Assembly (NCBI GenBank): GCA_947568835.1
Contig: OX387612.1
Coordinates: 12,774,001 to 12,838,000 of the forward strand
Reading direction: 5' to 3'
From: Protonemura montana
Taxonomy: Eukaryota; Arthropoda; Insecta; Plecoptera; Nemouridae
DNA: 64,000 nt
The notes under the pieces are model-generated. The model had not been told where the DNA came from, searched no databases, and saw nothing but the letters and a program-made list of their open reading frames with translations. Within the stretch, counting starts at the first letter, position 1; every line of letters begins with the position of its first letter. Below are positions 793 to 48,500 of this stretch, one piece after another. Both the position numbers and the translations under genes were made by a program.

Positions 793-2760
793 AGGTCTGA
801 TTGGCACGAAAGGTCGTTCTACTAGTGTCGATGTGTCGCAGTAGATCGTGAGGTTCGCGTCCTCGAGGCGTCGTGACTGTATGTGTAGCGACGTGTTGGA
901 CTGAAGAAATGCCCGAAGTTCATCATCGTCCTTCTGGGCTTGGGCAATTGTCTCGAAGCCCACTGGAGCAGAGATCGCTTCTACTCGAGATAAAACATCT
1001 GCGACAACGTTTTCTTTACCGGGAATATGGCGGATGTCTGTTGAAAATTGTCCGATGTAGTCGAGATACCGAAATTGTCAAGGCGAACATTTGTCTGATT
1101 TCTGCTGGAACGCGAATGTCAAAGGTTTGTGATCGGTATAAATGGTGAATATTCGCGCTTCTACCATGTGTCTGAAGTAGCGTATAGCCTCATAAATAGC
1201 CAACAGCTCGCGGTCATATGCACCGTAATTGCGCTGCGCTCCGTTTAATTTGCGAGAGAAAAATGCCAGCGGTTGCCACCCTGTGTTCGTTCTCTGTTGA
1301 AGCGCAGCTCCAATACAAATGTCTGAGGCATCAGCGACGATGGCGAGTTCTGCGTTCGGATTCGGGTGTGTAAGAAGCGTAGCTTGAGAAAGACTTCGTT
1401 TGCAACCTTCAAACGACCTCAACAGTTCTGGTGTCCAAACGATTGGTGTCTTGCCTGACTTATCGGCGCCAACGAGAAGGTTATTGAGAGCTGCCTGAAG
1501 TCTAGCAGCTGATGGTAGATGACGGCGATAAAAATTTAGCATCCCTAGAAATTGTCGTAATTGTTTCACATTGCTTGGCGGTGAAAACGAAACGATTGCT
1601 TCGACCTTGTCGTCAAGGGGTCGTGTCCCATCAGCGTTGACAGTGTGGCCAAGAAATTTCACTTCAGATGCGCCGAAGACACACTTGGAAAAGTTAATTA
1701 AAACACCATATTCGGAGAGCCTAGCAAAAAGCAGGCGAAGATGTTGTTCGTGCTCCGTTTGTGACGATGATGCAATAAGAATATCGTCGATGTAGGCGTA
1801 GGCGAAATCCAAATCACGAAGGGCTTCATCGATAAATCTTTGAAAAGTTTGAGCTGCGTTCCTCAAACCAAAGCTCATGAACGGAAATTCGAATAAGCCA
1901 AAGGGGGTCGTTATCGCCGTTTTGGCAATGTCTTCTGGCGCGACGGGAATTTGATTGTAAGCCCGAACTAAATCTACTGTTGAAAATACGGTCTTACCGG
2001 TAAGCGCTGGAGCAAAATCTTGTATATGCGGAACAGGATACCGGTCTGGAATGGTCCTGCTGTTCAAAGCTCTGTAGTCACCACACGGTCTCCATTGGTT
2101 GTCCTTTTTGGGAACGAGATGAAGGGCAGCCGACCAGTTACTGGATGAACGTCTAGCTGTGCCTGTCTTAAGCATAGTGTTGAATTCAGCCTTGGCCATT
2201 TGTAGTCGATCTGGTGCTAGGCGTCGAGGTTTGCACGACACTGGATGACCAGCTGTCGTGTGGATGTGATGCAATGTTTCGTGTTTAGTTTTGCGCGAAA
2301 TACCTGCTGGTCTCGTGATATCCGGGAATTCAGCAAGAATGGCATGGTATGGCGAGTGACCATTGACTGCTTTGACATGTTGCTGGTTGTCGTTGATCAA
2401 CTTGCCGGCGATAGCAAAAGATGTGAGACTGTCGATAAGACGATGGTTTCGGATATCCACCATTAAACTGTAAAATGATAGGAAATCAACAACGATGATA
2501 GGTTTGGATACGTCGGCGACGACGAAACTCCAGGAGAAATTGCGTTTAAATCCCAGATTTAAGTTGAGGCTAAATGCACCGAATGTAGATATGATTGAAC
2601 CATTGGCGGCGAATAGCTCATATGTGGACCTTTCGCGAGTTCCTTTAATCATCTTGCGCGGGTAGACACATAAATCGGATCCGGTATCAACAAGGAACTG
2701 TTGCCGGGTTGTGATATCTGTTACGAAAAGGCGACGTGAATTTGGACAGCCGTCCGTCGC
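793..2760 (-). pseudogene. pol: Ty3/gypsy pol: protease, reverse transcriptase, RNase H (no integrase)
   Basis: In minus-strand order it shows an aspartic protease motif (DTGSDL, near 2680), then an ATG-started frame 2652-1078 with reverse transcriptase. The RT blocks include [22 protein letters not shown] and the catalytic AYIDD. An RNase H start follows ([20 protein letters not shown]). A TGA at 1078-1080 interrupts RNase H, and the same frame continues with VVADVLSRVE to about 793, where it runs into a truncated LTR. The integrase zinc finger and DDE core are absent. The set is typical of metazoan Ty3/gypsy elements. The copy cannot be autonomous as it stands. The frame upstream of 2652 is needed for the protease, so gag-pol was probably joined by frameshifting or overlap. 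Confidence 0.85.
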
Positions 2761-2762
2761 GT

Positions 2763-3503
2763 CTACTGACTGTCCTTCGAGTTTTTTCCGTCAAAACTAC
2801 AGGGTTGACGACACATTTTCGCTCGTGCGCCAAACTTATGGTGATACCAACACATACCATCCGTTAATGAACGTGGATTGGCCGGCAGTCGCACCCGATT
2901 CGATGGTCGTTTACCTGAGAGTGCTTCAATTTGGCGCGACAACTCTTCAACCTGCATTCGAAGTTGGTTGTCGTCGTTGACTACCGCTATGCGCATAGGA
3001 CATGAGGCGTCCTCGTGAATCCGATCGGCGATCTCGGAGAGGGCGTCCAGGTCGTCAGGCGGCGACGCGGAAAGGACATCTCGCATCCTAATTGGCAAAC
3101 GTTCGAGCCATAATATCCTTAAAACTTTGTCGGTCACTTCTTTGTCCGCTAAGCTTCGCAATTGCAATAATAATTCTGATGGTTTTCGATCACCCAACTC
3201 TTCATGTTGAAGAAGTCGCTTAATTTGAACTTCAGACGACTTCGAGAAACGACGAATAAGTTCCGATTTGAGACGTTCGTATTTGCCTGTCTCGGGTGGA
3301 CTTACTATGATGTCGCGTACGGCGGTAGCATATCTGTGCTCCAGGGCACTTGCAACCTGGCAAAACTTCGTTGAATCGCTTGTAATTCCACTCAATTTGA
3401 ACTGGCTTTCTATCTGAGCAAACCAAAGTGTAGGGTCTTCGATCCAGAACGATGAAATCTTGCAGCTAATTCGGTCTACCGATGCGGATTCGTTTGTAGC
3501 CAT
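2763..3503 (-). CDS. gag: Ty3/gypsy Gag-like protein
   Basis: A 246-residue frame beginning MATNESAS, immediately downstream (minus strand) of the LTR and primer-binding site, where gag belongs. It is a mostly helical capsid-type sequence with the WF.Q.E..F family pattern. Near the C-terminus is a Cys/His cluster (CWYHHKFG...C...C) like the zinc-knuckle-type element seen in many arthropod and other invertebrate gypsy Gags. It ends just before the protease frame. The first codons are also present twice in the fold-back at 398-731. Confidence 0.75.
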
Positions 3504-5711: not shown

Positions 5712-5995
5712 TTATTCATTTTTATTCCTAAGAATATCAAGCTGCGCTTGTTTGATTTCCGCATCAAGCAAGGCTGCTTGCAGCTTTGTTTCATTAATTG
5801 ACATTTTCAGTATATGCAGCTCCGTTTTCTCCGCTTGCTCTGTGACTGCAGCGACCTTCATTAGCTCGGCCAGCTCCCGCTTGGACTTGGCCAGCAGAGC
5901 GTAGTTTGATGAGCTACCGGATGGTAGGCTCTGTTGGCCAAGTCCAAGAGATGGTGTCCGCCTTCGCACCCAGTCTTTATTGTGAACAGCTGCAC
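5712..5995 (-). CDS. C-terminal exon of Harbinger Myb/SANT-like partner
   Basis: A minus-strand exon with a good acceptor (TTTTCACAG) on its upstream side and a stop at 5712. It encodes a Ser-rich linker followed by a charged coiled coil (LLAKSKRELAELM..., then LQAALLDAEIKQAQLDIL). This layout, convergent to the transposase, is that of the Myb/SANT-like DNA-binding protein of Harbinger elements, where the C-terminal coiled coil follows the DNA-binding domain. The Myb domain exon was not found. Assignment rests mainly on context. Confidence 0.5.
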
Positions 5996-6159
5996 CTGTG
6001 AAAAGAAAGGACATAGGGGAGTAGGCTAGAACTAGGTCTTTCACTTTTAATTTAAGGCCTAGCCTACATTGGTTTTTTTATTGAGGATTAAAATCTGTCC
6101 TGGACTGAAATATTTTTTTTAAATATTGATGTTAAAAAAATGAAGTACATGAACTACAC

Positions 6160-6590
6160 TTATTTTGTATTTACATTTTCTTTTGCCTTTCCATTTAAAA
6201 AATCTGTACTTGAATAAAAACAGTTTTCAATAAAATATGCCTTCAGGAAGTCTTTAAAATTAGTCTTACTTTTCAATTCTTTTAAATCTTTAGGCAAGCA
6301 ATTAAAAAATTTGTTTCCTGCATAGCTTGGTCTTTTTAAAATAACTTAAGATGGTGGCTTTCTTCCCTCAGATGATCTCTATTTCTAGTATTATAATTCC
6401 TTTTTGTTTCCACCTCAATTTTGGACCATTCTAAGACATATATAATTGTACAGTACATGTATAAAGAAGGCAACGTCATCATTTTGAAATATTTCAACAG
6501 AGGCTTTGTCGTATCTTTATAAAAAAATCTCCGCGCGTGCCTGGCTCTCGCACCTCGGCCAGGTTCTTCTTGCTCTGCTCTCACAATCCT
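6160..6590 (-). mobile_element. 3' end fragment of a CR1-group LINE
   Basis: Minus-strand translation gives FYKDTTKPLLKYFKM, then a Y...R.RDHL segment and, after frame breaks, a C-terminal FLKAYFIENCFYS. These align by eye with the C-terminus of the intact LINE at 14516-17422 (FYKDSCKPYFIKFQI, FLINNAFYSID). Only the extreme 3' part of ORF2 is left, as in a 5'-truncated LINE. Confidence 0.7.
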
Positions 6591-9474: not shown

Positions 9475-10918
9475 CACATTGCCAACTTTAGAATGCAAAA
9501 TAAAGCCAGTCTTCACCGGGGAGTTTGAAAATTAACCAGTAAATTATGATCAAACAATGCATCATGCACTTAAATTCTTTGTGAATTGAACAGTTTGTTT
9601 ACGTGAAATTAATTCCATTTAAAAATAAGAACTTAAATGCAAAACTAAAAGTTCTAATGGCTTCTGCTAAATACCTACCGTACACTAGCGGATTCTAGCA
9701 ATGGCTGCCAAAACGCAGTTTGCAAGCTTGGTTTCCTGCCAAAACCCAATAAAAGTTAAAAGTAATCCAAAATATATTAATTGTAACTTTGGTTGATTAA
9801 CATTTATTGTTTTTCATTAAATCTTTTGTATTAAATTTAGTCCCTCGGAAGAATCTTGAAAATTTAGAAAGTCTACGTTTTTCATCTGCAAAATTTCTAG
9901 ATGGGCTCGGGCTGTGTTTAACTTAAGCAACCTACGTAGTAGAGACACCGGACTGAAAATGTCTACAGATTTTAACCCTCTGTCAATTTCACTGTGGATT
10001 GCATCCACTTCTTGCAAATTACCGTGGCCCGGCTCAGAATATTTCTGCTCTATACTTTGAATGGTAACTTGATCGTCAGCGAGAAAGGTTGTGATTGCAG
10101 TGATAGAGTTTTTATTCTGTGGGACGCACGAATCTGACCAAAGTATTACTTTCTTGAGCTGGGGATATCGCTGTTGGACGGCATATAGTATTTTAACCAT
10201 AGCGCTTGCAATGTGGTTACCTGCACGTCCGGATATTCCCTCGTTCCACAATGCACAGAACGTTACGCCATCTAGGCTGCAATGGGCTGTCAAATTATAG
10301 CAATTCAACTTTCGTAGGTAGAAAAAGCTTGATATTTCGGATTTAGGCAATGAAATAACCCTCTCCATATCGTTACAAATCACCATAGTCTCTACGTCAG
10401 GGGAATTTCTTTTGTACCGCTCCCGATCAGTATCTCGCTCAGCTTTTCCCAAAGTCTTCCTCTTTAAATGAGCATCGTGGAGTTCTAGCTCTGCAGTGCT
10501 TGGCTGTAGGATCATTTTAAAAGCCTCACAACTGTCACATCAATCTTTCTTTGGGTGATGAAATGCTAGGTTGAACTCATTCATGAAGATTTGTCTATAC
10601 TTGCTTCATTTCACTGGATTTTCCTTGTAAGGTGAGACCCTGTAAATACCTCTAAACGTCTCGATGCTCGCAAGTGTATGCCGACGCACGCAATGTCGTC
10701 CTACGAAAGGGTACGGTGCGGGGTACAAAGTTTGCCTAATATAAAACACTCTTAAGAAATAACAATTTACTCTCAATGCACGACATCTCTGATAGGTACA
10801 TGAAAGGTAATATGAAAATAATCCTAATTACAAACTAACAATTTACTATAAGAGTGATAAGATAAAAAATCCCTTAGTCCCTAGCTAGCTGTCATTGGCC
10901 AGAATACAATTATGAAGA

Positions 10919-11305
10919 TTACTTGAATTTGATCGCCGAGGTAGCCGTGTTTCTCCGTCGATCAGGCGACGACGTTCGCGTTGACTCGTCGAACAGGCGT
11001 CGTGTGACTAATGAGGATCGCGACTCAGGCGTCGTGGCTCGGGTTCGCGTCGCAACTCCGGGCGCAATCAAACAGGCGGCGTGGATCGAGGCCGCGTCGC
11101 AACTCGGGCGACGTCGTGGTATCAGGCGACGTCGTGGCTCAGGATTCGTAGCTCGAGACAGCGTCGCCACTCCAGGCGTCGTACCTCCGCTGACTTGGTG
11201 TACTGGTCCCGGTGTACTCTCTCGTCTCCTCTGATCAGCCTTCTCACGTTCCCGGTCTCGGGCCTTCTCCCGTTCCTCCCTTGTTCTTCCGCTGGCGTTC
11301 CTCAC
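10919..11305 (-). CDS. 128-aa basic ORF of the 1.3-kb element
   Basis: An ATG frame with an Arg/Glu-rich start (TREEREKARDRERE) and an Arg/Thr/Ser-rich body. The homologous frame in copy 2 (48090-48476) differs by one visible residue. No domain is recognised. It could be a Gag-like or nucleic-acid-binding protein, or a frame kept open by youth of the element. Confidence 0.35.
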   Translation of the reverse strand: MRNASGRTREEREKARDREREKADQRRRESTPGPVHQVSGGTTPGVATLSRATNPEPRRRLIPRRRPSCDAASIHAACLIAPGVATRTRATTPESRSSLVTRRLFDESTRTSSPDRRRNTATSAIKFK

Positions 11306-11539
11306 GCTCCCTCTCCAGATTACACCTCGTGACTTCCTCGGCCAATCATTTGCTCGAATTTATTCTATTGTACATTTAAAGAACTATAACTAATTGGGAG
11401 AGGCACTTTGGAAAGGATCATGGGGACTGGACCTCACTGCGAACGTCGACACATTCCTGCGAAGCATGTGGCTAACCAGTCGCCTTTCAACCGATGCCAG
11501 AACACTTGTCACCCTTACAAAACTATCGGATATTAAACA

Positions 11540-11995
11540 GACGCGCGTGCCTCGAAGATTGTATGCATTATGTGCATCGCGCAAACCGATGCCAGAATAC
11601 TTGTCACCCTTATTGATGCCTAACAGATATATTATACAGATGGCTCGACGCACATGGCTAGAAGATTGTATGCATTATGTGCATCGCACAAACCGATGCC
11701 AGAACACTTGTCACCCTTATTGATGCCTAACAGATATATTATACAGATAGCTCGACGCACATGGCTAGAAGATTGTATGCATTATGTGCATCGCACAAAC
11801 CGATGCCAGAACACTTGTCACCCTTATTGATGCCTAACAGATATATTATACAGATGGCTCGACGCACATGGCTCGAAGATTGTATGCATTATGTGCATCG
11901 CACAAACCGATGCTAGAATACTTGTCACCCTTATTGATGCCTAACAGATATATTATACAGATGGCTCGACGCACATGGCTAGAAGATTGTACGCA
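11540..11995 (+). repeat. 107-bp tandem repeat inside the 1.3-kb element
   Basis: About four units spaced 107 bp apart (CTCGACGCAC at 11644, 11751, 11858 and 11965), each containing the self-complementary stretch GCATTATGTGCATCGC. A shorter version of the array is in the other element copy. Confidence 0.85.
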
Positions 11996-12383
11996 TTATG
12001 TGCACCTCACATCCTTATTTAAAAATTCACTGTCTAAGAAAAGCTGATGCATTCCAGCTACTGTCAGAGACGGATCTAAATACTTTTTGGTCGTTTCTGA
12101 TTGACAATCCCCGTCCACTTCAAAATAGTAACAAAATGAGTTGGCGCGTCGACTAATCTCCGCTACTGTGCGCTTCCGGGCTTTGGGCAAACGCTCAATA
12201 AACTTAGCGTAGATATGCATTTTTTTTTCATCCGACAGTTTCCAAAACATGCGAGCCCCATTGGTCCCATGCGAGCTCCCGACAAATTAACCTAACAGTG
12301 AAACACACCTTTGTTTCCCAGCTACGACAAGACGCGTCCCGATTGCGTTTGTTCGCGTGGCGGCCAGAGAATATTTGGCCAAG

Positions 12384-14489
12384 ATGGCGGCAGACGGGGA
12401 AGACGGCTCAGAAAGCTCGTGCAAAGCATTGAAGATAAAGTGTTTTAAATGTAAAAGAAAGGTATCAAATGGTGTTCAATGCAAGGACTGTGCTCGTGTT
12501 TTTCACTGGAGGTGTGCTGGCTGTGTGCAAGAGGGTGATGAAGCTGGTGGTGACGAGTTATGTGTGTGGACGTGTCAGACGTGCAGTGAAGCCGAGGCTA
12601 ATGGCGGACCCGATGAAATAGCACAGCTGACATCAACTGTCATAGGCCTACACACAGAAATCAACTCGATGAAGCTTGACATCAAACAAATCTACGCCAA
12701 CTTAGAAGAGGTAATAAATAAAAATAAAACACTACAGTCCAAACTCCAAGCCCTGAGAAAAACAGATAATCAGTCGAATTCAGAGGCAGTTGAAATTGAA
12801 GTTACGTCCCCAATGCCATGTATAAACACCCCAAAAAATCGCTCCAGTCAAATAGCATCGAGAATTAGATTCTACGAGACATCAACAAATAAGAAATCAG
12901 AGCAAGGGGAAATCGTGCCAGTTAGCAGTCCTGTCTCAAAAACTAACCTAGGGAATGTACAGTTGTACGCAGATATCGCTGTTACAGTAAATAAGGACAG
13001 TGACCTATTCAAATCTAACCCTGCTCATTCGCTAGCGCATTGCGTCGCTAGAGATATGAAGATGTCCTCAGGAATTGCAGTTGCTTTTCGGGAAAAGTTT
13101 AAGAAAACCGAAGAGCTCAAAGCACAAAAAAAGAAAATAGGTGAAGTCGCTTATATCAAGGAGGGAAGCAGATACGTGTTCTATCTAATCTCCAAAGAAA
13201 AATCGCGCCATAAACCTTCGTTTAATGACCTGAAGAAGTGTATTCGCGAACTCAAATTGCTTTGCAATCATCTAAATATCCAAAATGTATCAATCCCCAC
13301 TATAGGATGTGGTCGAGATGGCCTAGAGTGGAACCGAGTACATGAAGTGCTCATCGCTGAATTCCAGAGCAGTAACACTCACGTTCATGTCCACATTCCG
13401 AGAGACACTGTAGTTGTTCTTCCAGAGAATCCGGGAAAATCAGTCCTTTTAATCGGAGATAGCCACCTTCGAGGCTGCCGCAGCCTCCTTCAGGATGAAC
13501 TCCCGGGTATGAATATAGTTTGCATGTTCAAACCAAACGCAACGGCGAAAGAAACACTTAAAGATATAGAGAGCAACTTGGCCTCTAAGGCTTGGCGAAC
13601 GCCAGAAACTGTCATTATTGCTTGCGGCACAAACGACATTACGTCTCCCTTTGATCGGGAAGAAAAGAATACGTTTTTGCGATCCATCCGAGAAGCCATC
13701 GTAAAATCAGGAGACACAAAAAAGATATTGTGTAACCTGCCATATCGCTATGATAATCCACCACTAAATCGAACAATATTCTCTTTAAACATAATAATGA
13801 ACAAAATGCAAAAAGAGTTCCCCAAATTACATATTGCAAATGTAACAGATATTCCTAGGTCAGGCTACACCAGGCATGGCCACCACCTCAGCGAGGAGGG
13901 AAAAAATCAATTCTGTAAAAAGCTAGTCGCGCTCATTAGTGACATATCACTTAAAGCCAAACGAAAAGTACCCCATATCTCGATGCCCACCGTGTCTCAG
14001 TGGGAAATGGAAACAAGCCGACCAAAGAAATCTCCGGAAGAAGAATTCCCTACTCTACCCCAAATTATCTCAAAGAAAATATTGTTCTCAGAAAGACAAG
14101 AAAGAAATGCAGTGACCGGCAATCAACAGAATCATAAAGCATCGAGGATTGATGGGCATAACATCCCTGACCCAGAAAAGAATTCGACGCACCTAAATAA
14201 TCAATTCCGACAGACCCAAATCATAACCGACCGACGATATCAACAAACCGTTCAGGGCAAAGACCGATGCACCACCACTGACCCAGTCACCGAAAGAAAT
14301 CAGAGAAATACACCATTGGCCTGCGGAAACTGTTTCGCCGCGAAGGATTTTCATCCAACATCTCAAAGCAAACCGCCTCCGTACATACCGCCACACTGTC
14401 ACCGAATGGTCAAACATCACCCCGGATATCCGCACAGACTGCCCGAAAGGTATCCAATTATCAACAACCAATTAGTAACGCTAGTTTAA
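12384..14489 (+). CDS. LINE ORF1: PHD finger, TARG1-like macrodomain, SGNH hydrolase
   Basis: 701 residues from ATG 12384, which sits in a good AAGATGG context; the open frame extends 27 bp further upstream without an ATG. A PHD finger (C20, C23, C33, C36, H41, C44, C64, C67) and a coiled coil (about 78-127) come first. A macrodomain of the TARG1/OARD1 type follows (about 192-338): SLAHCVARDMKMSSGIAV, RYVFYLISK, HKPSF and IPTIGCGRDGLEW. The residues matching the TARG1 catalytic Lys and Asp are K271 and D312. An SGNH/GDSL hydrolase comes next (about 350-520) with LIGDSH (S360), CGTND (415-418) and HGHHLS (H501). The C-terminal tail is polar. PHD and esterase domains are known in CR1-like ORF1s. 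The ADP-ribose-hydrolase-type macrodomain between them is the unusual part. ORF1 probably forms the RNP and may bind chromatin. Confidence 0.85.
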   Translation: MAADGEDGSESSCKALKIKCFKCKRKVSNGVQCKDCARVFHWRCAGCVQEGDEAGGDELCVWTCQTCSEAEANGGPDEIAQLTSTVIGLHTEINSMKLDIKQIYANLEEVINKNKTLQSKLQALRKTDNQSNSEAVEIEVTSPMPCINTPKNRSSQIASRIRFYETSTNKKSEQGEIVPVSSPVSKTNLGNVQLYADIAVTVNKDSDLFKSNPAHSLAHCVARDMKMSSGIAVAFREKFKKTEELKAQKKKIGEVAYIKEGSRYVFYLISKEKSRHKPSFNDLKKCIRELKLLCNHLNIQNVSIPTIGCGRDGLEWNRVHEVLIAEFQSSNTHVHVHIPRDTVVVLPENPGKSVLLIGDSHLRGCRSLLQDELPGMNIVCMFKPNATAKETLKDIESNLASKAWRTPETVIIACGTNDITSPFDREEKNTFLRSIREAIVKSGDTKKILCNLPYRYDNPPLNRTIFSLNIIMNKMQKEFPKLHIANVTDIPRSGYTRHGHHLSEEGKNQFCKKLVALISDISLKAKRKVPHISMPTVSQWEMETSRPKKSPEEEFPTLPQIISKKILFSERQERNAVTGNQQNHKASRIDGHNIPDPEKNSTHLNNQFRQTQIITDRRYQQTVQGKDRCTTTDPVTERNQRNTPLACGNCFAAKDFHPTSQSKPPPYIPPHCHRMVKHHPGYPHRLPERYPIINNQLVTLV

Positions 14490-14515
14490 ATGTCTCTAAA
14501 AGGAATCAGTGTATC

Positions 14516-17422
14516 ATGATGCATGTAAACATACAGTCTATTAAATATAAAACAGATCGCATTGATTCATTTGTAAAGATACATAATCCTGAAATCTTAT
14601 GTTTCACAGAGCATTGGCTACAAAAGGAAGACGTTGATTATGTTAAAATTCAAGGATACATTCCAATATCCTTCTTTTGTAGGGAAAAAACTAAACATGG
14701 TGGTGTCATCATCTTTTCAAAAGAAGGTTTGGTAACTAAACCAATACAAATAGACCCCAATCTAATTCTAGATAAGGATATTGAAATCACGGCCATAGAA
14801 TTAAACGCCAGCTTTGGAAATTTTATTATTCTGTGTGTGTATAGATCTCCATCGGGCAATTTCGAAGTATTCTTAGAAAATCTTTCGTGTATCTTACTTG
14901 GATTAAACAGTCAAAATAAGCAAATTATTTTGTGTGGAGACTTCAATTCAAACTTTAACTCATCCTGCAAAAAAGCCTCGCAAATAGTTGATACCCTAAG
15001 TTCATTTGGCATAAACTTGAGAATTTTAAAAAACACAAGAATAACAAAGTCGTCCCAAACTTGCATCGACAACATCTTTACCAGCAACGAATATGTTCTT
15101 ACTGAGACGATAGATGCTGGATTGTCAGACCACTGTGTCCTACTGCTTTACATAACAAAGCAACCAAAGGCAAACAAAGTAGAATACGTGAAAAGAAGGA
15201 CTTTTAATAAAGAAAAAATAGATTCCTTCGGGCTAGCCTTAAGCCTAGCTTCTTGGGATAAAATATACGAGTTAGAAAGCGTCAATGAGATGTTCGAAGA
15301 ATTTATGAACATACTTAATGCCTTATTTGAAAATGCGTTTCCACTAAAAACGATGCATATTAATAATCAAAACAACCCCAATGTAAATTGGTACACACAA
15401 GAGTTACACGACTTGTCAGTAGAAGTAATGAAACTTTATGCAATAACTAAATCCAATAAAAGTACTGCAGATGACAATAAACACTATCTCACACTTTTAA
15501 GAAACTACAAAATTTTAATTCAAAAAAGCAAAAAGTGTGCTAACATAAAAAAGATTAAATCCTCAGACAACAAGCCAAAACAAGCATGGACTATTATTGA
15601 TAAAAACAAAAATAAACCACCCATTAGTAAGAACATTGAACTTGAACTCAAATGTGACCATGCAACAATCAAAAGGGTCACTACACCTATTGATGTAGCA
15701 AACGTTTTCAATGACTTTTTCAAAGAGGCAGCTATAAATGCCTACACAGACAATTTACCGCGCGTAAGTAAAAAACCTGTCTCATTTCTAAAATCAAAAT
15801 ATCACAACAAAAATTTCTTTTTAACACCAGCAACTTCGAAAGAAATTTTAGATGCATTCGACAAAGTCACAAAAAAGAAAAAGGCGGCTGGTTTTGATGA
15901 TATTCCGGGGCATATCTTGAGGCACAACGCAATCTACCTAGTGGACCCGTTAGAGCATATACTAAATACTTCGTTTTCAACTGGCACCTTCCCGGACAAA
16001 TTAAAGAAAGCCATAATAAGTCCATTGCATAAAAAGGGATGCCGGGAATCAGTACAAAATTATAGACCGATAGCAATACTATCCATTTTTTCCAAATTGT
16101 TTGAAAAGTGTTTTTGCAACAAATTGATTAACTTCTTAGATAAATACAGCCTAATATCAGAGTGTCAACACGGATTTCGTAATGGTAAATCAACAACATC
16201 CGCCATGCTCAGTTTCATGAATAAAGTGTATACTTCACTTAGTAATGGAAAGTCATCCATTGGGGTCTTCTACGACCTGTCAAAAGCTTTTGACATGGTA
16301 AATCACGACATTTTAATCGAAAAGCTGAAAACCTTTGGTATAATAGGTTTACCAAATGATTGGGTTAAATCCTATTTATTAAATAGGTGCTATGTTACAA
16401 AAGTCATAAGTTCAAATGGTCCTTTCTACTCAAAAGAAGCAATAACAAATATCGGCGTACCACAAGGATCTATAATAGCGCCACTACTATTTATCTTATA
16501 TACTAACGACATAGTTTCTTGTACTACGCAAGGGCAACTTACACTTTTTGCTGACGACACCACACAATTTTTAATAAATGATAAAACAAACAGTTCTGCC
16601 GAAACTCATAATAATAACTTAGCTGTTAGAGAAATCTCTGAGTGGGTAACCACAAACAAACTATCATTAAACAAACAGAAAACGGTTATGTTGCAATTTC
16701 ACTCAAAAAACGACCATCACCTTCGATCGAGCCCCCTTCTTTACCTAAATAACAAGAGCATTGTTCCACAAAACACAACAAAATTTCTAGGTATCATAGT
16801 TGACAATAAACTGCAATGGGGAGAACATATTGATGCTGTCTGTAAAAAAGTTGCCTCTGGTTGCTTTCTTATTAAAAGGCTAATGCAAATCTGCGATATA
16901 GCGACAGCAAAGCTAGTATATTACTCCTACCTTCATTCAAGACTAGCATATGGAATACTATTGTGGGGATTATCACATCACACAAAAAGACTTTTTACTC
17001 TACAAAAAAGAGCGATAAGATACCTAGCTGAAGCCACCTCAAATCCCTGTACTGCTGGCATGTTCTACAAGGATTCATGTAAACCATATTTTATTAAATT
17101 TCAAATTCTGACATTGCCTTGTATTTTTATATATTGTGCTGTATGCTTAATTATAGATAACAAACAATTGACAAATGATTGTAATGCCACGCATACATAC
17201 TTGACAAGAAACAGTCACGTATTAAAACCTAAGAAAAAAGTATCAAAATTTGATTTAAAAAATCCAATTTTAGTAAGCATTAAGCTGTACAATAAAGCAT
17301 TAGCAATTTTAAAGACGACAGGATCAAAAGAATATACTTTTAAAAATGATGTAAAAAACTTTCTTATTAATAATGCATTTTATTCTATTGATCAATTTTT
17401 ATCTTTTGACATGAGTGTATGA
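14516..17422 (+). CDS. LINE ORF2: APE endonuclease and reverse transcriptase
   Basis: 968 residues. The N-terminal AP-endonuclease-like domain shows HVNIQSI, CFTEHW (E32), CGDFNSN (D142, N144) and a GLSDHCVLL block (D205, H206). The reverse transcriptase shows NYRPIAILS, QHGFRNGKST, FYDLSKAFDMVNH (D587), GVPQGSIIAPLLF and LFADD (D680, D681). The C-terminal part has LQKRAIRYL and YKDSCKP. All key catalytic residues are present and there is no frame break, so target-primed reverse transcription could work. The start overlaps the end of a nine-codon ORF that follows ORF1. The ORF2 frame is also open back to 14282, inside ORF1, so frameshift or reinitiation are both possible. Confidence 0.93.
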   Translation: MMHVNIQSIKYKTDRIDSFVKIHNPEILCFTEHWLQKEDVDYVKIQGYIPISFFCREKTKHGGVIIFSKEGLVTKPIQIDPNLILDKDIEITAIELNASFGNFIILCVYRSPSGNFEVFLENLSCILLGLNSQNKQIILCGDFNSNFNSSCKKASQIVDTLSSFGINLRILKNTRITKSSQTCIDNIFTSNEYVLTETIDAGLSDHCVLLLYITKQPKANKVEYVKRRTFNKEKIDSFGLALSLASWDKIYELESVNEMFEEFMNILNALFENAFPLKTMHINNQNNPNVNWYTQELHDLSVEVMKLYAITKSNKSTADDNKHYLTLLRNYKILIQKSKKCANIKKIKSSDNKPKQAWTIIDKNKNKPPISKNIELELKCDHATIKRVTTPIDVANVFNDFFKEAAINAYTDNLPRVSKKPVSFLKSKYHNKNFFLTPATSKEILDAFDKVTKKKKAAGFDDIPGHILRHNAIYLVDPLEHILNTSFSTGTFPDKLKKAIISPLHKKGCRESVQNYRPIAILSIFSKLFEKCFCNKLINFLDKYSLISECQHGFRNGKSTTSAMLSFMNKVYTSLSNGKSSIGVFYDLSKAFDMVNHDILIEKLKTFGIIGLPNDWVKSYLLNRCYVTKVISSNGPFYSKEAITNIGVPQGSIIAPLLFILYTNDIVSCTTQGQLTLFADDTTQFLINDKTNSSAETHNNNLAVREISEWVTTNKLSLNKQKTVMLQFHSKNDHHLRSSPLLYLNNKSIVPQNTTKFLGIIVDNKLQWGEHIDAVCKKVASGCFLIKRLMQICDIATAKLVYYSYLHSRLAYGILLWGLSHHTKRLFTLQKRAIRYLAEATSNPCTAGMFYKDSCKPYFIKFQILTLPCIFIYCAVCLIIDNKQLTNDCNATHTYLTRNSHVLKPKKKVSKFDLKNPILVSIKLYNKALAILKTTGSKEYTFKNDVKNFLINNAFYSIDQFLSFDMSV

Positions 17423-18724
17423 TAGTATGTATTATGTATTATGTATTATGTATTAATCGGTCGCACTACGCTATGTATACTTTACATGTAAATATGCTGA
17501 CAAGTATCATACCATTTATTTGGTCAATTGTTACAATAAAAGCAATTATTATTATTATTATTATTATTAAAACCGCTGAAAAATGTTCAATTGATCGGCT
17601 CTCGAAACCCCTAGCATACATCTGAAACTGCAATCATCACGGCACTGCCTGTTTGACGCACGGGCTGCATGCTTATTGCCTTTCCCGTCGGAGTACGCTT
17701 TCCCCGAGGCTCGGTTTAGGTTTTCAACGTTACGCGGCCAAAGATGGGGTCTCTGCTGCCTTTTCGATGTCCTTGTAGCCCTGTAAATTTATTCAAAATT
17801 TATCAAACTTCACACATCACATCTTTTTTGTAATTCAATCATTGCAGGTATACACTTACTTAACAACTAAACCAATAACAGCTGCTGACTCTTGCTCGCA
17901 ATCAGTCTCCGCTTCGCCTTCACTTAACAAGTAGTTTGGATCATCGGCATCATCACTGTTTAAACACGAGGGAAAAAGGCATTAAAATTTTGAAGGCTTG
18001 AGTTCATTAAAGTTTGATTTTGTTGTACGTTTTGACATACCTATCTTGCACACTTTCTGGAATAACGGTGAATCTTCGAGCATCAGATTCATCGTCGCCG
18101 ACCTCGGACGTCTCGGCGAGGTTTTCGTCATTGATGTCGTCGCTGCACTCGCTTTGAAATGATGCTGCATCATCCACTTCAGGCATCTCCGGCAGAACAT
18201 CGCTGCAACCGCTTTCGCTCGTATCATCGAGAATGCTATTATCGAAAGAAAGAGCACTGATTATTTTGCTTTATTTAAACCATTATTTCCATGCCAGATT
18301 TTACTAGGAGATTTATTACAAATCTAGAAGTACTTACCCTAAATCCAAACAGACTGGCAGATCCGGGGCTGGCGACGACATGGGTTCATCTTCACTATCC
18401 CCATATTCCATAATTTGATCCATATCAAAGAAATATAAAAATCACGGTCATTGAGAATAAACAAATCTTTACCAAAGTTTATACCTATAACCTACAATAA
18501 GCCACAAGCACACGACGAGATTCGAACCTAATTCGAACGGCGCGAAAATACTCGATCGTGATTGGTCGAAACATACTGAATCCGGTTTGTTGGAGCATAG
18601 TTGGAGTTAGAACAAATAAGCATTAACTTTGATCGGTTTCGGGTGGATACAGACCACGATTTATTCCAGAAAAGCAGTGTTAGGGACATATTTTCATGCA
18701 GGTCAGCTTGTTTTTGCATAAATT

Positions 18725-25200: not shown

Positions 25201-28200
25201 GCGTTTATTCTGCGTTTATTCTGCGTTTATTCTGCGTTTTTACTGCGTTTATTCTGCGTTTATTCTGCGTTTTTACTGCGTTTATTCTGCGTTTATTCTG
25301 CGTTTATTCTGCGTTTATTCTGCGTTTTTGCTGCGTTTATTCTGCGTTTATTCTGCGTTTATTCTGCGTTTTTACTGCGTTTATTCTGCGTTTTTGATGC
25401 GTTTTTACTGCGTTTATTCTGCGTTTATTCTGCGTTTATGCTGCGTTTATTCTGCGTTTATTCTGCGTTTTTACTGCGTTTATTCTGCGTTTATTCTGCG
25501 TTTACTCTGCGTTTACTCTGCGTTTTTACTGCGTTTACTCTGCGATTTTACTGCGTTTTTACTGCGTTTATGCTGCCGGCCCGTATAGCTGGCACGATCT
25601 GAACTGGAGGAATCGTGGTGGGAACGAGAGTTTGGAATCAGGAACTGTTGTGATTGTCAAGTGTGAGATTGTAACAAATGTTGTGGCTTTAAATGTTCCT
25701 GTTTGTGTTAATGTTTGTGTTAATGTTTATAAATGTACCTGTTCGCGACTATGTTTTTGATTTTGTACCTGACTGTACTAATTGCGTTTGATGTTATTTT
25801 TACAATTGCGTTCTGTTTCACTAACTTGTGTTCTTGTAATCCATGTCGCAGGAACCTAATGACGGAGCCTTTACCTTTCAGCGCCTGATAATCAAATGCC
25901 AGGCAATAACAAAAACTTTTTTGATTTCATTGTTGCGAACGTCAAGTGTCTCCGTGAACACTGCTACCAACTCGACTGGCCGATTTTTGCATCAGCTCCA
26001 TGGCTACCAACTGGACCATCATCTCGGCAACAAAGATGGAACGGAGTTAAGAAGAGGGTTCTGGTTCGACTCCCAGTACCTGGCCAGTCGCCGTGGCAAC
26101 AAAGATGGAACGGAGTTTAGAAGAGGGTTCTGGTTCGACTCCCAGTACCTGGCCAGTCGCCGTGGCAACAAAGATGGAACGGAGTTTAGAAGAGGGTTCT
26201 GGTTCGACTCCCAGTACCTAGCCAGTCGCCGTGGCAACAAAGATGGAACGGAGTTTAGAAGAGGGTTCTGGTTCGACTCCCAGTACCTAGCCAGTCGCCG
26301 TGGCAACAAAGGTGAGCCAACAAATAAACATTACAAATTATTTAACAAGTTGAGTCGAGACCGATGAAGCACTCTTGACTAGATTTACATAATAACCGTT
26401 GTTTGCTTCGGGAATATTTTGAAACTCTGTGCATCTCTTCCCGGTGAAATTTGTCAGCCAGCAACGTTTGTTTTATTTTTGTCCTTTGATTTCCAGCTGA
26501 CCGCCCGAGGCTACAGAATCTGCGCCCGTAACACTTGTCGCTCGAGACCGAAACGAAGAATGAAGATCGACATGATGCTCGACTGACCGATGGTAAGCCA
26601 AGATTTGATCGGCATTTTCCACAATAAATCCGCTGCAGGAATCGATTCTTCCAACTTACCAGTGGTGTAGTCCTACATTATTTTTTTTTGGGTATACGCT
26701 GGGTTATCAGGCCTTGAGTTCCAAATGCCGTGGTCATCACTAGGTTAGGTACTGGCTAGGTACTTCTAGTCTATTCACTAGTTATAGTTCATAGATAGTC
26801 CATTCCTATCAACACTAAAACTACTACTTGGTGTTGGGGTCGCTGCAATCGCGCTTTCCTGGGGTGGGTTGAATGAGTACGTTGACTGCTTGGAAAAACC
26901 ATTGCATACCCATCCAGATCATACGAACCGCTACGATACACGGACTACCCACTTTTCAGAATAAACTTTGCTTTTCAAGTTTTTATAATGTAGGTTGTAG
27001 GGAGATTAAGAATTGTCGTTGCAAAACGCAATTTAAAGTTTTGCAAAGTGTATTTACTGGGCGTATACCCTGTAATTTTTTTGGGTATACGCTCGGTGTC
27101 TAAAAGTTTTTTGGGTATACGGCTAATACCCGCGTACACCCTCGACTGCACCACTGCAACTTACCTTGCACTAAACGAGTCCGTCCGTTGTGCTTTGCTC
27201 GTTTAAATTTCGCGTCTACCCGTCCCAGTGGCGTTGCAAGCCACTGTCGATCGTGACTAACGTGTTTCTGGTTTTGTCTGCAGTCGGCGGTTGTCATTCA
27301 CGATTGAAGAAAGTGACGGTGAAGACCTCGAGGAACCTGAGCCCCCAGGCTTCCCCCGCGACAAGTGTCGTACGATGGAATATATTCGACAACAAAACTA
27401 CAGGTACGCAACTGCATGGACGTAAAGCTCCCTGCTCCAAACCGTAACTTTGATTGTAAGCCGACATTTTAATTCGACATGTACATCGGTGAGAATGCAA
27501 TCAACTGAGAGCGTACACAACTACCCTCTAGAAACTTTGTTCCCGTTCGTGGAATCGACCCACAATTGTTAGCTTACGAGGCACATACTCATGGACTTAA
27601 CCTCAAAAAGTTGTTGCTAGCAACCGTCTAGCGGGAACATAATTGATGAACGGTTTGGCGTGTTGGAAACACCGGTTCTCGTAAGATCACCAAAGTTAAG
27701 CAACACTGCGCTGGGTAAGGTATTGGATGGGTGACCATCATACACATGACCAGCTCTGTTCGGGAGAGACGTTGGAGGGATGAAAGTTAAGCAACACTGC
27801 GCTGGGCCAGGTATTGGATGGGTGACCATCATACACACGACCAGTTCTGTTCGGGAGAGAGGTTGGAGGGATGAAAGTTAAGCAACACTGCGCTGGGTCA
27901 GGTATTGGATGGGTGATCATCATACACATGACCAGTTCTGTTCGGGAGAGAGGTTGGAGGGATGAAAGTTAGTACAGCAACTTCACTCGCCTTGCTTATC
28001 AACCTCTCGACAGCATGGATTTGTGGAGGAATCCTGTTGTTTGCGTTGTACCGTCCTTTGGAAGGGACGTTAAGCCGGTGGTCCCCTTGGTCTTCGACAG
28101 GAGTAGGCTACGTGCCGGCACCGGGTTTCCCCTCCTGCCTTCTAGGCTAGGTTAGGTTCATCATCATCATCCACTCATTCACCGACGCCATCAGACCAGT

Positions 28201-30924: not shown

Positions 30925-31806
30925 AATGATTGATTATTGGTATTTAACGACGCACTGTTATACAACTGGGCATGCGGCACTGGTCTAATGGCGACGGTGA
31001 ATGAGCGGATGATTATGAGGATGATGATTAATCTAACCTAGCCTAGAAGGGAGACGGGGAAACCCGGTGACTACACGTACCCTACTTCTGTTGAAAAGCT
31101 TGGACCACTGGCTTAACGTCCCTTCCGAAGGACGGTACAACGCGAACAACAGGATTCCTCCACAAATCCATGCTGTCGAGAGGTTGATAAGCAAGGCGAG
31201 TGAAGTTGCTGTACTAACTTTCATCCCTCCAACCTCTCTCCCGAACAGAACTGGTCATGTGTATGATGGTCACCCATCCAATACCTGACCCAGCGCAGTG
31301 TTGCTTAACTTTCGTCCCTCCAACCTCTCTCCCGAACAGAACTGGTCATGTGTATGATGGTCACCCATCCAATACCTGACCCAGCGCAGTGTTGCCTAAC
31401 TTTGATCCCTCCAACCTCTCTCCTGAACAGAACTGGTCATGTGTATGATGGTCACCCATCCAATACCTGACCCAGCGCAGTGTTGCTTAACTTGCATCCC
31501 TCCAACCTCTCTCCCGAACAGAACTGGTCATGTGTATGATGGTCACCCATCCAATACCTGACCCAGCGCAGTGTTGCTTAACTTTCGTCCCTCCAACCTC
31601 TCTCCCGAACAGAACTGGTCATGTGTATGATGGTCACCCATCCAATACCTGACCCAGCGCAGTGTTGCCTAACTTTCATCCCTCCAACCTCTCTCCCGAA
31701 CAGAACTGGTCATGTGTGTGATGGTCATCCATACAATACCTGACCCAGCGCAGTGTTGCTTAACTTCGGTGATTTAACGAGAACCGGTGTTTCCAACACG
31801 CCAAAC
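30925..31806 (-). mobile_element. 5S-headed SINE with amplified head, copy 2
   Basis: The mirror-image copy of 27653-28262 on the minus strand, starting GTTTGGCGTGTTGGAAACACC at 31806. Its 5S-derived 91-bp unit is repeated about six times (31218-31765) instead of three. The body and the GTCGTTAAATACC tail motif are conserved. A short tail-only relic is at about 33183-33245. Confidence 0.85.
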
Positions 31807-31807
31807 A

Positions 31808-32215
31808 GGGAGTACCCCCCCTTCATTTTCTCGCAAATAAATGGAAACCAAATTTTTTTATTGTTATGTCTGTTTCGTTCAGTACATCACGTATTTTTGA
31901 AGGCTAGAGCTTATGAGTTTTGTAGGCTTTTTCTCATTTTTGTCCAGGGCTGGGCCAAAAATTTAGACCATCACAGATCGAAAGCCCATCACGTACTCTA
32001 TCATCTGTGAAAATTTCAAGGGAGTAGCTCCCCTTCATTTTCTCGCAAATAAATGATAACACAAATTTTTTTATTGTTAGCCTGTCTCGTTCAGTACATC
32101 ACGTATTTTTGAAGGCTAGCGCTTATGAGTTTTGTAGGCTGTTTTCTCGTTGCGCTATGTTGAGTTGGTGCCTTTAGATGGCGTTTTAGATTTTGCGAGC
32201 TAAGTATCCACTAGT
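31808..32215 (+). repeat. Copy of the 148-bp repeat family with end module
   Basis: Two 148-bp-type units followed by the CACTAGTCC-ending module also seen at 19600-19790. It abuts the head of the minus-strand SINE. Confidence 0.75.
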
Positions 32216-45538: not shown

Positions 45539-48500
45539 ATGGAAGAATCTGTGGTTAGTAGTGTGACTAGCGCGGGCAAAATCGAGCAATTTGTTAATGA
45601 AATATTACTGTGCAGTTCTCAATATGGAAATAGCTCTAGTATTTCGTTCACGGCAGTCAATTTGATTGGAAAACCAAGAGTTTTTCCACGTTATGGCGAC
45701 TCTCACGAAGCATATTCTCCTGTAAGTTGTCGGACCAAGCAGTCGCCGAAATTTGATGAAGCCTTCCAACAACGCTAATCTTGTTAAGTATGCTTAAAGA
45801 GTCTATCTTCTAGAGGACTTATGGCCCGTGGTGGGATATGGCGCCTTCCGCGAGCAAACCCATTCAAACGCAAAACTTGGCTCGAATCCAAGCGAAGGAT
45901 TTTGTAGGTAAGCAACAAAGACTTAAGCAACTTAACCTCAATGTAGTCCATGTGCTACAAGTGTCAGAAGAAGTAATTGTAGTTAAATTCATGTAGTTAT
46001 TTCATTGTTTACTGGTATATTTATCCATTTATCTGCTGTAGATGGGTATCTGTATCTGATGTTGGTACCCAAATGTTATGTAAGTGTTTGTAAATAAGTA
46101 AATATTGTTGTTTGTTAGTGGTCAGCTTAGAGTTGGCTGTATTCCCGAGTGAAGTCAGTGTCTACGAGACATACAACCCAGGCAGCGTTGTAAGAATCTG
46201 GGCGTGTCCTTACGCTGCTAACATCTCGCAAGACATTCGCTGGCGTTTGCTTTACGAGGGGGAACCACATTCCACGGAGAAACAATCTCGCATCTTTTCT
46301 CCACCGCTCAGAAACATTCCATTTCCCACAAGGTAGAACAAATGACCACCAAATACACTAAAATCATCTAAAAAAACTAGTGTCTAAGTAGCTCAATAGG
46401 TTAGAGCAACACCCGCGACAGGTGGAGATCGGGGTCCAAGTAGCTCAATAGGTTAGAGCAACACCCGCGACAGGGGGAGATCGGGGTTCAAGTAGCTCAA
46501 TAGGTTAGAGCAACACCCGCGACAGGTGGAGATCCGGGTCCAAGTAGCTTAATTGGTTAGAGCAACACCCGCGACAGGGGGAGATCGGGGTCCAAGTAGC
46601 TCAATAGGTTAGAGCAACACCCGCGACAGGTGGAGATCGGGGTCCAAGTAGCTCAATTGGTTAGAGCAACACCCGCGACAGGTGGAGATCGGGGTCCAAG
46701 TAGCTCAATAGGTTAGAGCAACACCCGCGACAGGTGGAGATCGGGGTCCAAGTAGCTTAATTGGTTAGAGCAACACCCGCGACAGGGGGAGATCGGGGTC
46801 CAAGTAGCTCAATAGGTTAGAGCAACACCCGCGACAGGTGGAGATCGGGGTCCAAGTAGCTCAATTGGTTAGAGCAACACCCGCGACAGGTGGAGATCGG
46901 GGTCCAAGTAGCTCAATAGGTTAGAGCAACACCCGCGACAGGTGGAGATCGGGGTCCAAGTAGCTCAATTGGTTAGAGCAACACCCGTGACAGGTGGAGA
47001 TCGGGGTTCGAGTAGCTCAATTGGTTAGAGCAACACCCGTGACAGGTGGAGATCGGGGTTCGAGTAGCTCAATTGGTTAGAGCAACACCCGCGACAGATG
47101 GAGATCGGGGTCCAATTTAGCTTCATTTACTAAAAAAATTACTAGGTTAAGCAAGTTCTCGTAGGGTTTTATTATTATGTCGATAGCATAGGAGTCGTGC
47201 ATTAAAATCTGATAAGTGTTGTTGTATGGATGTAAATTGAGACGCGGGATGCGCACTCGCAAGTCGCGGTTAGCGATTTTCATTTACTACCTCTTGCCAA
47301 TGAATTGCGTCAGCCAGTGGAGTGGCGTGCGGAACTTTTGCTCTCGGGTGCAGGCATGGGAGAAGCCGCGAGGTCTATGGAGTACGTGGTCTCGGCGTTT
47401 CGCGAGGGTTTTGATTCGGCCAGAAGCCTGTTGTATTTTTTAGTTTTTTTTCGCGTAGCTGGGCTTCACTCAAGTGGGATGGGGACGAATTGTGCGATGC
47501 ACATAATGCATACAATCTTCTAGCTATGTGCGTCGAGCCATCTGTATAATATATCTGTTAGGCATCAATAAGGGTGACAAGTGTTCTGGCATCGGTTTGC
47601 GCGATGCACATAATGCATACAATCTTCTAGCCATGTGCGTCGAGCCATCTGTATAATATATCTGTTAGGCATCAATAAGGGTGACAAGTATTCTGGCATC
47701 GGTTTGTGCGATGCACATAATGCATACAATCTTCTAGCCATGTGCGTCGAGCTATCTGTATAATATATCTGTTAGGCATCAATAAGGGTGACAAGTATTC
47801 TGGCATCGGTTTGCGCGATGCACATAATGCATACAATCTTCGAGGCACGCGCGTCTGTTTAATATCCGATAGTTTTGTAAGGGTGACAAGTGTTCTGGCA
47901 TCGGTTGAAAGGCGACTGGTTAGCCACATGCTTCGCAGGAATGTGTCGATGTTCGCAGTGAGGTCCAGTCCCCATGATCCTTTCCAAAGTGCCTCTCCCA
48001 ATTAGTTATTGTTCTTTAAATGTACAATAGAATAAATTCGAGCAAATGATTGGCCGAGGAAGTCACGAGGTGTAATCTGGAGAGGGAGCGTGAGGAACGC
48101 CAGCGGAAGAACAAGGGAGGAACGGGAGAAGGCCCGAGACCGGGAACGTGAGAAGGCTGATCAGAGGAGACGAGAGAGTACACCGGTACCAGTACACCAA
48201 GTCAGCGGAGGTACGACGCCTGGAGTGGCGACGCTGTCTCGAGCTACGAATCCTGAGCCACGACGTCGCCTGATACCACGACGTCGCCCGAGTTGCGACG
48301 CGGCCTCGATCCACGCCGCCTGTTTGATTGCGCCCGGAGTTGCGACGCGAACCCGAGCCACGACGCCTGAGTCGCGATCCTCATTAGTCACACGACGCCT
48401 GTTCGACGAGTCAACGCGAACGTCGTCGCCTGATCGACGGAGAAACACGGCTACCTCGGCGATCAAATTCAAGTAATCTTCATAATTTTATTCTGGCCAA

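Follow-up and report, generated by a model that had tools for sequence, protein, structure and literature searches.

A TARG1-like macrodomain in the ORF1 of a young Protonemura montana LINE and its relatives in other retroelements

Described systems nearest to the locus

ADP-ribosylation has been linked to antiviral defence and to the repair of DNA breaks, and viruses are known to counter it with macrodomains. Viral macrodomains such as those of coronavirus nsp3 and alphavirus nsP3 are parasite-borne ADP-ribose erasers carried in the parasite's own protein, as the domain described here would likewise be if active. TARG1/OARD1 (C6orf130; ALC1-like class) is a small stand-alone cellular enzyme, whereas the domain found in our window, the 64,000-nucleotide stretch of DNA that was analysed, is a module of a LINE ORF1. 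In layout the closest systems are the PHD/esterase ORF1s of CR1/L2 elements (PMC4120745; ZfL2-1, PMC3905857), which share with the window element a PHD-like finger, a coil, an SGNH domain and a separate endonuclease-reverse transcriptase ORF2; the window element differs from those described by a macrodomain between coil and SGNH. The survey of 448 elements by Metcalfe and Casane (PMC4120745) describes ORF1s with PHD, RRM, CCHC, Tnp22, esterase, coiled coil and zf/lz, its Table 1 contains no macrodomain, and its account of the esterase-type ORF1 places it in two vertebrate groups only. The nearest precedent is a review (PMC4977317) citing Basta 2009 for fish epsilon-like ERVs with macro domain ORFs. 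The likeness is that of a retroelement with a macrodomain; the fish elements, however, are retroviruses that carry it as an additional ORF, and the class of macrodomain is not stated in that passage of the review. Among the literature matches listed, read by title and opening of the abstract and with most subscription journals and Repbase outside the scope, none describes a macrodomain in a LINE ORF1, and the initial annotation's impression that a PHD-macrodomain-SGNH ORF1 is not already catalogued held within that same scope.

The window LINE and the domains of its ORF1

The element and its parts, all on the plus strand, are as follows.

12370..17571, plus: LINE element; extent as common with copy L009; (ATT)n tail at the 3′ end; true 5′ end putative
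12384..14489, plus: ORF1, 701 aa from the first ATG; PHD-like, coil-like, macrodomain, SGNH and a low-complexity C-terminus
12441..12584, plus: PHD-like zinc finger; C4HC3 spacing by eye; Pfam PHD 10.3 bits against a cut-off of 24
12624..12782, plus: probable coiled coil, suggested by coil-rich Pfam families, the only ones to match (e.g. YabA 90-142), below cut-off
12978..13406, plus: TARG1/OARD1-type macrodomain, from Pfam, phmmer against the PDB, TARG1 alignment, structure model and fold search
13194..13196, plus: codon of K271, aligned with TARG1 Lys84
13317..13319, plus: codon of D312, aligned with TARG1 Asp125; codon place derived from the residue number
13434..13989, plus: SGNH/GDSL hydrolase-like domain; AF2 model of modest confidence (pLDDT 77.6), matched by Foldseek to GDSL hydrolases
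14516..17422, plus: ORF2, 968 aa; endonuclease (Pfam Exo_endo_phos, 1e-09) and reverse transcriptase (RVT_1, 1.1e-30)

The window LINE is a young element with near-identical copies. The copy L009, on another contig, matches it over 5202 bp at 99.98% with a single mismatch, and a 5′-truncated copy (L010) starts at the equivalent of 12897 and is 99.87% identical (both by blastn). Near-identical copies lie on contigs C3, C15 and C16, and an identical 295-aa reverse transcriptase (RT) stretch is encoded at 7 places in the genome, the window among them. No clear target-site duplication was seen at the window, L009 or L010. The 5′-truncated copy and the short 3′ repeat tail are as in the CR1/L2/Jockey group, as is the layout of ORF1 followed by an ORF2 with an APE-type endonuclease and an RT. 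The ORF1 frame is open from a GTG at 12357, upstream of the first ATG at 12384.

The domain now modelled at 12978-13406 had been placed by the initial annotation at 12957-13397, which is correct to within a linker, and its assignment to a TARG1-like macrodomain is borne out by both sequence and predicted structure. Pfam Macro scores 29.3 bits in the window ORF1 (cut-off 22, E 8.8e-07), above the threshold as that assignment anticipated. When phmmer was run against the PDB, five human TARG1 (C6orf130) sequences ranked first at 1.1e-31 to 1.4e-31 and the next family, DarG, followed at 1.5e-05, which makes the match specific to TARG1 and much too strong for chance. The macro fold is intact in the predicted structure, and the fold search again gave TARG1 as the nearest solved relative, in line with the structural expectation. 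The TARG1-aligned core spans 13002-13376 (residues 216-340, numbered from the GTG). Within it the motifs YLISK and CGRD hold K271 and D312 (numbered from the ATG), as had been proposed for the equivalents of Lys84 and Asp125. A domain that is TARG1-like and retains both catalytic residues is therefore supported by alignment and by the predicted model. In DarG, by comparison, the lysine is the one dyad residue retained (PMC9411070), and membership of the window domain in the DarG antitoxin family was rejected, NCBIfam NF048014 giving 46.2 bits against a curated cut-off of 250.

The neighbouring domains are less clear-cut, and the intact PHD-SGNH ORF1 of the initial annotation is supported as follows: the frame is open and the SGNH domain is recognisable by fold, and the PHD finger is read from its motif spacing and from the sister element L011, whose PHD exceeds the Pfam cut-off (26.6 against 24). 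The window SGNH domain scores 19.5 bits in Pfam, under the cut-off of 32.9; in Foldseek its model best matches 4rw0 (5.4e-09), and the ZfL2-1 ORF1 esterase, 4c1b, appears at rank 44. Aligned by eye with that esterase, the serine of the GDS motif and the histidine of the triad are present, and the aspartate position is a histidine (RHGHH). Since the triad aspartate reads histidine in the window and L011 has, by eye, an asparagine in place of the triad histidine, the esterase may be in decay even as the macrodomain retains its dyad.

Other features of the window lie apart from this element. On the minus strand at 1078-3503 is another retroelement, with an RT-RNase H ORF and a DUF7041 ORF. Segments 10626-11905 and 47490-48769 form an inverted duplicate, 98.8% identical over 1280 bases, which contains tandem units of about 100 bases. 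Two isolated 5S-rRNA-like matches, at 27645-27765 and 31694-31810 (56.5 and 44.1 bits), are possibly SINEs or pseudogenes.

Carriers of the domain, constraint and captures

Three genome searches for the domain returned at least 47, at least 55 and at least 51 matches. After repeats had been dropped by eye, 59 intervals were merged into about 46 places, a number that derives from lower-bound listings and includes the window and the host-gene places. Among the 45 places beyond the window, 26 were fetched (L009-L028, L031, L032, L041-L044), and all but one of these were read as retroelement copies or fragments; the remaining place, L026, is the host OARD1. For L018, L031, L042 and L044 the call as retroelement was made from domain similarity or ORF1 make-up and not from an RT at the same place. 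The carriers were sorted by RT and ORF1 make-up into the following groups.

Group A1: window, L009, L010, L011 and L012; PHD-coil-macrodomain-SGNH; plus the fragment L018
Group A2: L014-L016, L022, L024, L027, L031, L032 and L044; macrodomain, then tandem repeats in ORFs of sufficient length
Group B: L017, L019, L042, L020, L021 and L023
Group D: L041/L043; zinc finger (by eye)-coil-macrodomain-repeats; frame-broken, with its own endonuclease/RT
LTR carriers: L013, L028 and L025

The LINE carriers belong to several RT lineages and pair the macrodomain with varied partners. In group B, L017 has SAP (2.6e-08), the macrodomain and SGNH (7.9e-10), the last matching the ZfL2-1 esterase at 7.9e-13; L019 and L042 have a PHD-like finger, below the Pfam cut-off in L019 and seen by eye in L042. 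In A2, the LINE ORF1 at 1992-3788 of L024 has an N-terminal BTB/POZ domain (1.9e-24) before the macrodomain and tandem repeats. Pfam Macro was above its cut-off in 5 of 10 relatives scanned (L011, L013, L020, L022 and the public protein P0001) and below it in L014, L017, L019, L024 and L027, as also in L032. Compared directly with human TARG1 the relatives gave full-length domain scores of 70.6-132.8 bits, stronger than those of Pfam Macro.

The LTR carriers hold the domain within pol. In the Gypsy-type element L013 a protease, a repeat array, the macrodomain (5831-6400, minus strand; TARG1 match 2.5e-38), RT-RNase H and integrase share one open frame, with the macrodomain between protease and RT. 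A second, broken copy, L028, matches over long stretches at 94.8-98.4% and has an LTR-like direct repeat that ends at the edge of the examined stretch. In the decayed Gypsy-type element L025 the order is RNase H, macrodomain (2215-2703, plus strand) and integrase zinc-binding domain; Pfam finds nothing in its macrodomain piece at E values up to 0.1, but the piece matches TARG1 at 3.2e-20 and keeps the dyad. The slot within pol differs between L013 and L025, which argues that the domain entered LTR elements at least twice, in addition to its entry into LINEs. Judged by similarity, the domain is shared by many families of LINEs and by two LTR elements, beyond the single element first noticed.

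Several features of the carriers were recorded alongside. Long in-frame proline- or threonine-rich tandem repeats lie C-terminal of the macrodomain in L014-L016, L022, L027, L032 and L043, with a repeat unit that varies between families. In L042, a PHD-macrodomain-SGNH LINE copy, an unrelated 684-aa ORF splits the macrodomain, as if another element had inserted. L023 (C15:12000-20500), a lineage-B copy, lies inside a 5S rRNA gene array, with 5S genes flanking it on both sides at steps of about 955 bases; on C15 there are four matching copies, three of them spaced about 11.4 kb, and L017, of the same family, had no 5S match.

A search for the architecture among public proteins gave hits in 2 of 216 candidates for the window query, 8 of 359 for the L017 query and 1 of 389 for the L013 piece. 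P0001, a JGI metagenome protein of 713 aa, has the window's layout with identities of 47.6% in the PHD-coil part, about 67-69.6% in the macrodomain and 65.3% in SGNH; only its macrodomain exceeds the Pfam cut-off. P0002, from the mayfly Ephemera danica, and P0011 resemble LINE ORF1s that lack RT context, combining coil-like N-termini (by eye) with the macrodomain. Two macro-like copies are present in each of the fish proteins P0003 and P0004, and P0005, P0006 and P0009 resemble insect host genes. In IMG/VR viral contigs 2 of 17 pattern matches are relatives, both stand-alone TARG1-like genes with both dyad residues:

L029, 467-1030: viral TARG1-like gene
L030, 5950-6399: viral TARG1-like gene

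Across the retroelement fragments that cover the sites (L026 excluded, and several fragments being copies of one family rather than independent families), Asp125 is kept in 24/24 and Lys84 in 22/24, with changes in the decayed L018 (Asn) and L044 (Arg). The dyad is retained in families down to 26% identity with the window domain. Between the window element and L011/L012 the macrodomain is 67.4% identical, against 52.9% for SGNH, 50-52% for the endonuclease, 49.9% for RT and 34.6% for the PHD-coil part; its dN is 0.251, against 0.373-0.433 for SGNH, endonuclease and RT, and with dS set at 3 its dN/dS would come to less than about 0.08, a rough figure because dS is saturated. In lineage B (L017-L019) the macrodomain is 76.2% identical and the RT 46.8%, with a dN/dS of about 0.064 that is likewise rough, dS being near saturation. 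In 4 of 5 pairs among A2 elements (L016, L022, L027, L032) identity is lower in the macrodomain than in the RT (36-50% against 63-71%), so constraint is not uniform; the exception is L027-L032, with 75% for the macrodomain and 60% for the whole ORF2.

Among eight fetched regions that lie upstream of related RTs (L033-L040), three sister families have a readable ORF1 without the macrodomain: L034 (RT 59% to the window), with a PHD-like finger by eye, a coil and SGNH (Pfam 19.5, below cut-off); L033 (RT 63% to the window), with PHD at 22.8, just under 24, a coil and CCHC-like knuckles by eye; and L039 (RT 60% to L016), with a coil and proline-rich repeats by eye. The remaining regions (L035, L036, L037, L038 and L040), having no full ORF1, are uninformative on this point. 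Aligned with the window, L034 has a gap at the second half of the macrodomain and unlike linker sequence opposite the first.

The macrodomain trees are compatible with one capture or with several. These trees left out the phage L030 and L023, and L026 was represented by its two exons in place of exon 2 alone. A single clade of all 13 retroelement domains was not rejected (AU p 0.215), and p was 0.082 for the 12 LINE domains as one clade, 0.293 for the macro-repeat group with L016 and 0.357 for RT lineage A as one macrodomain clade. A forced macrodomain clade of L016, L022 and L032 was rejected (p 1.2e-05); since the RT tree can likewise do without this grouping (p 0.129), we claim no swap. Lineage B domains adjoin insect host OARD1 in the tree (84/82), a hint that this lineage may represent a separate capture from a host, and L026 clusters with the OARD1 of cricket (92/85) and of cockroach (96/92). 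Element descent cannot give LINE and LTR elements the same domain, which implies at least one transfer between classes, or separate host captures.

Proposed function of the domain

Our preferred reading, to which we give a probability of roughly 0.7, is that ORF1 carries a TARG1-type ADP-ribosyl hydrolase that would undo host ADP-ribosylation of the retrotransposon RNP or of the target site. We infer the enzymatic activity from conservation; the substrate and the benefit to transposition are proposals. ORF1p is thought to coat the element RNA, so the enzyme, as part of ORF1p, would travel with the RNP. Host PARPs might attach ADP-ribose to the element's RNA or proteins in defence and the domain would then strip it off; alternatively, it could act at the nicked target site, clearing ADP-ribose from DNA ends and proteins there while target-primed reverse transcription proceeds. 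Both ideas of the initial annotation, erasure of PARP marks at target breaks and antiviral-type defence, would fit this picture; its further idea that the PHD reads ADP-ribosylated chromatin drew no support from the analysis. The domain would be a retrotransposon counterpart of viral macrodomains. What the data show is the homology, the predicted fold, the conserved dyad, the constraint in two lineages, the repeated association with retroelements and the youth of the copies. The host also possesses PARP genes, its genome giving 7 exon-wise matches to the PARP catalytic domain, as such an eraser would require. Against it stand the three sister families that manage without the domain and the uneven constraint in A2.

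Published work bears on this proposal from several sides. ZAP/PARP13 restricts L1, and its zinc-finger domain suffices for that restriction, so this case needs no ADP-ribosylation (PMC4441479). Mutations in the SARS-CoV macrodomain raise innate responses (PMC5156301), and among the roles that a review considers possible is the ADP-ribosylation of RNA from transposons or viruses (PMC7050489). ADP-ribose on Glu/Asp and on nucleic-acid ends is removed by TARG1, which also acts on O-acetyl-ADP-ribose (PMC7050489), so the substrate could be other than a defence mark.

That the domain simply belongs to host OARD1, or that the assembly has falsely joined that gene to a LINE as a chimera, is very improbable and was rejected. 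A host-type OARD1 does exist in the genome, at L026, but it lies on contig C12, where a GT-AG intron separates its two exons within the domain and one more exon-like match is present, whereas the LINE copies are open through the domain; near-identical copies on three contigs speak against a chimera, as does P0001, a separate public record with the same layout and a macrodomain at about 67%. If the domain is genuinely the element's, it might still act as a reader and not as an eraser, binding ADP-ribose only, so as to tether the RNP to PARP-marked breaks and aid target choice. Pure-reader macrodomains exist (PMC7050489), the predicted fold is intact and the ORF1 also has a PHD-like finger; retention of the whole dyad is not required of a reader, but the fragments keep Asp125 without exception and Lys84 in nearly all, and we regard this alternative as unlikely. 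We think it somewhat less likely again that the domain is a structural or RNA-binding part or a passenger, accidentally captured, serving oligomerisation or nothing, and conserved through folding alone. Its patchy presence among sister families and its weaker conservation than the RT in most macro-repeat pairs would fit, but the dyad persists at low overall identity, dN is low and dN/dS roughly so in two lineages, and the domain recurs in two element classes. This recurrence, in unlike ORF1s and in two LTR elements, speaks for the reading of the domain as an ADP-ribose eraser.

A broader proposal, that several retrotransposon classes have repeatedly acquired and shuffled TARG1-type erasers as counter-defence, we hold tentatively, at somewhat under even odds. 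Were it true, it would point to an ADP-ribosylation (PARP) arm of invertebrate anti-transposon immunity and to an arms race like that between PARPs and viral macrodomains. LINE and LTR elements that share the domain in one genome offer a natural replicate. Should the domain prove active, control of transposons by ADP-ribosylation would be open to direct test, and ORF1, whose role is poorly understood, would gain an enzymatic handle. The presence of the same domain in many other retroelement families of this genome suggests that erasers of this kind may serve retrotransposons, as they do some viruses, in countering a tagging system of the host.
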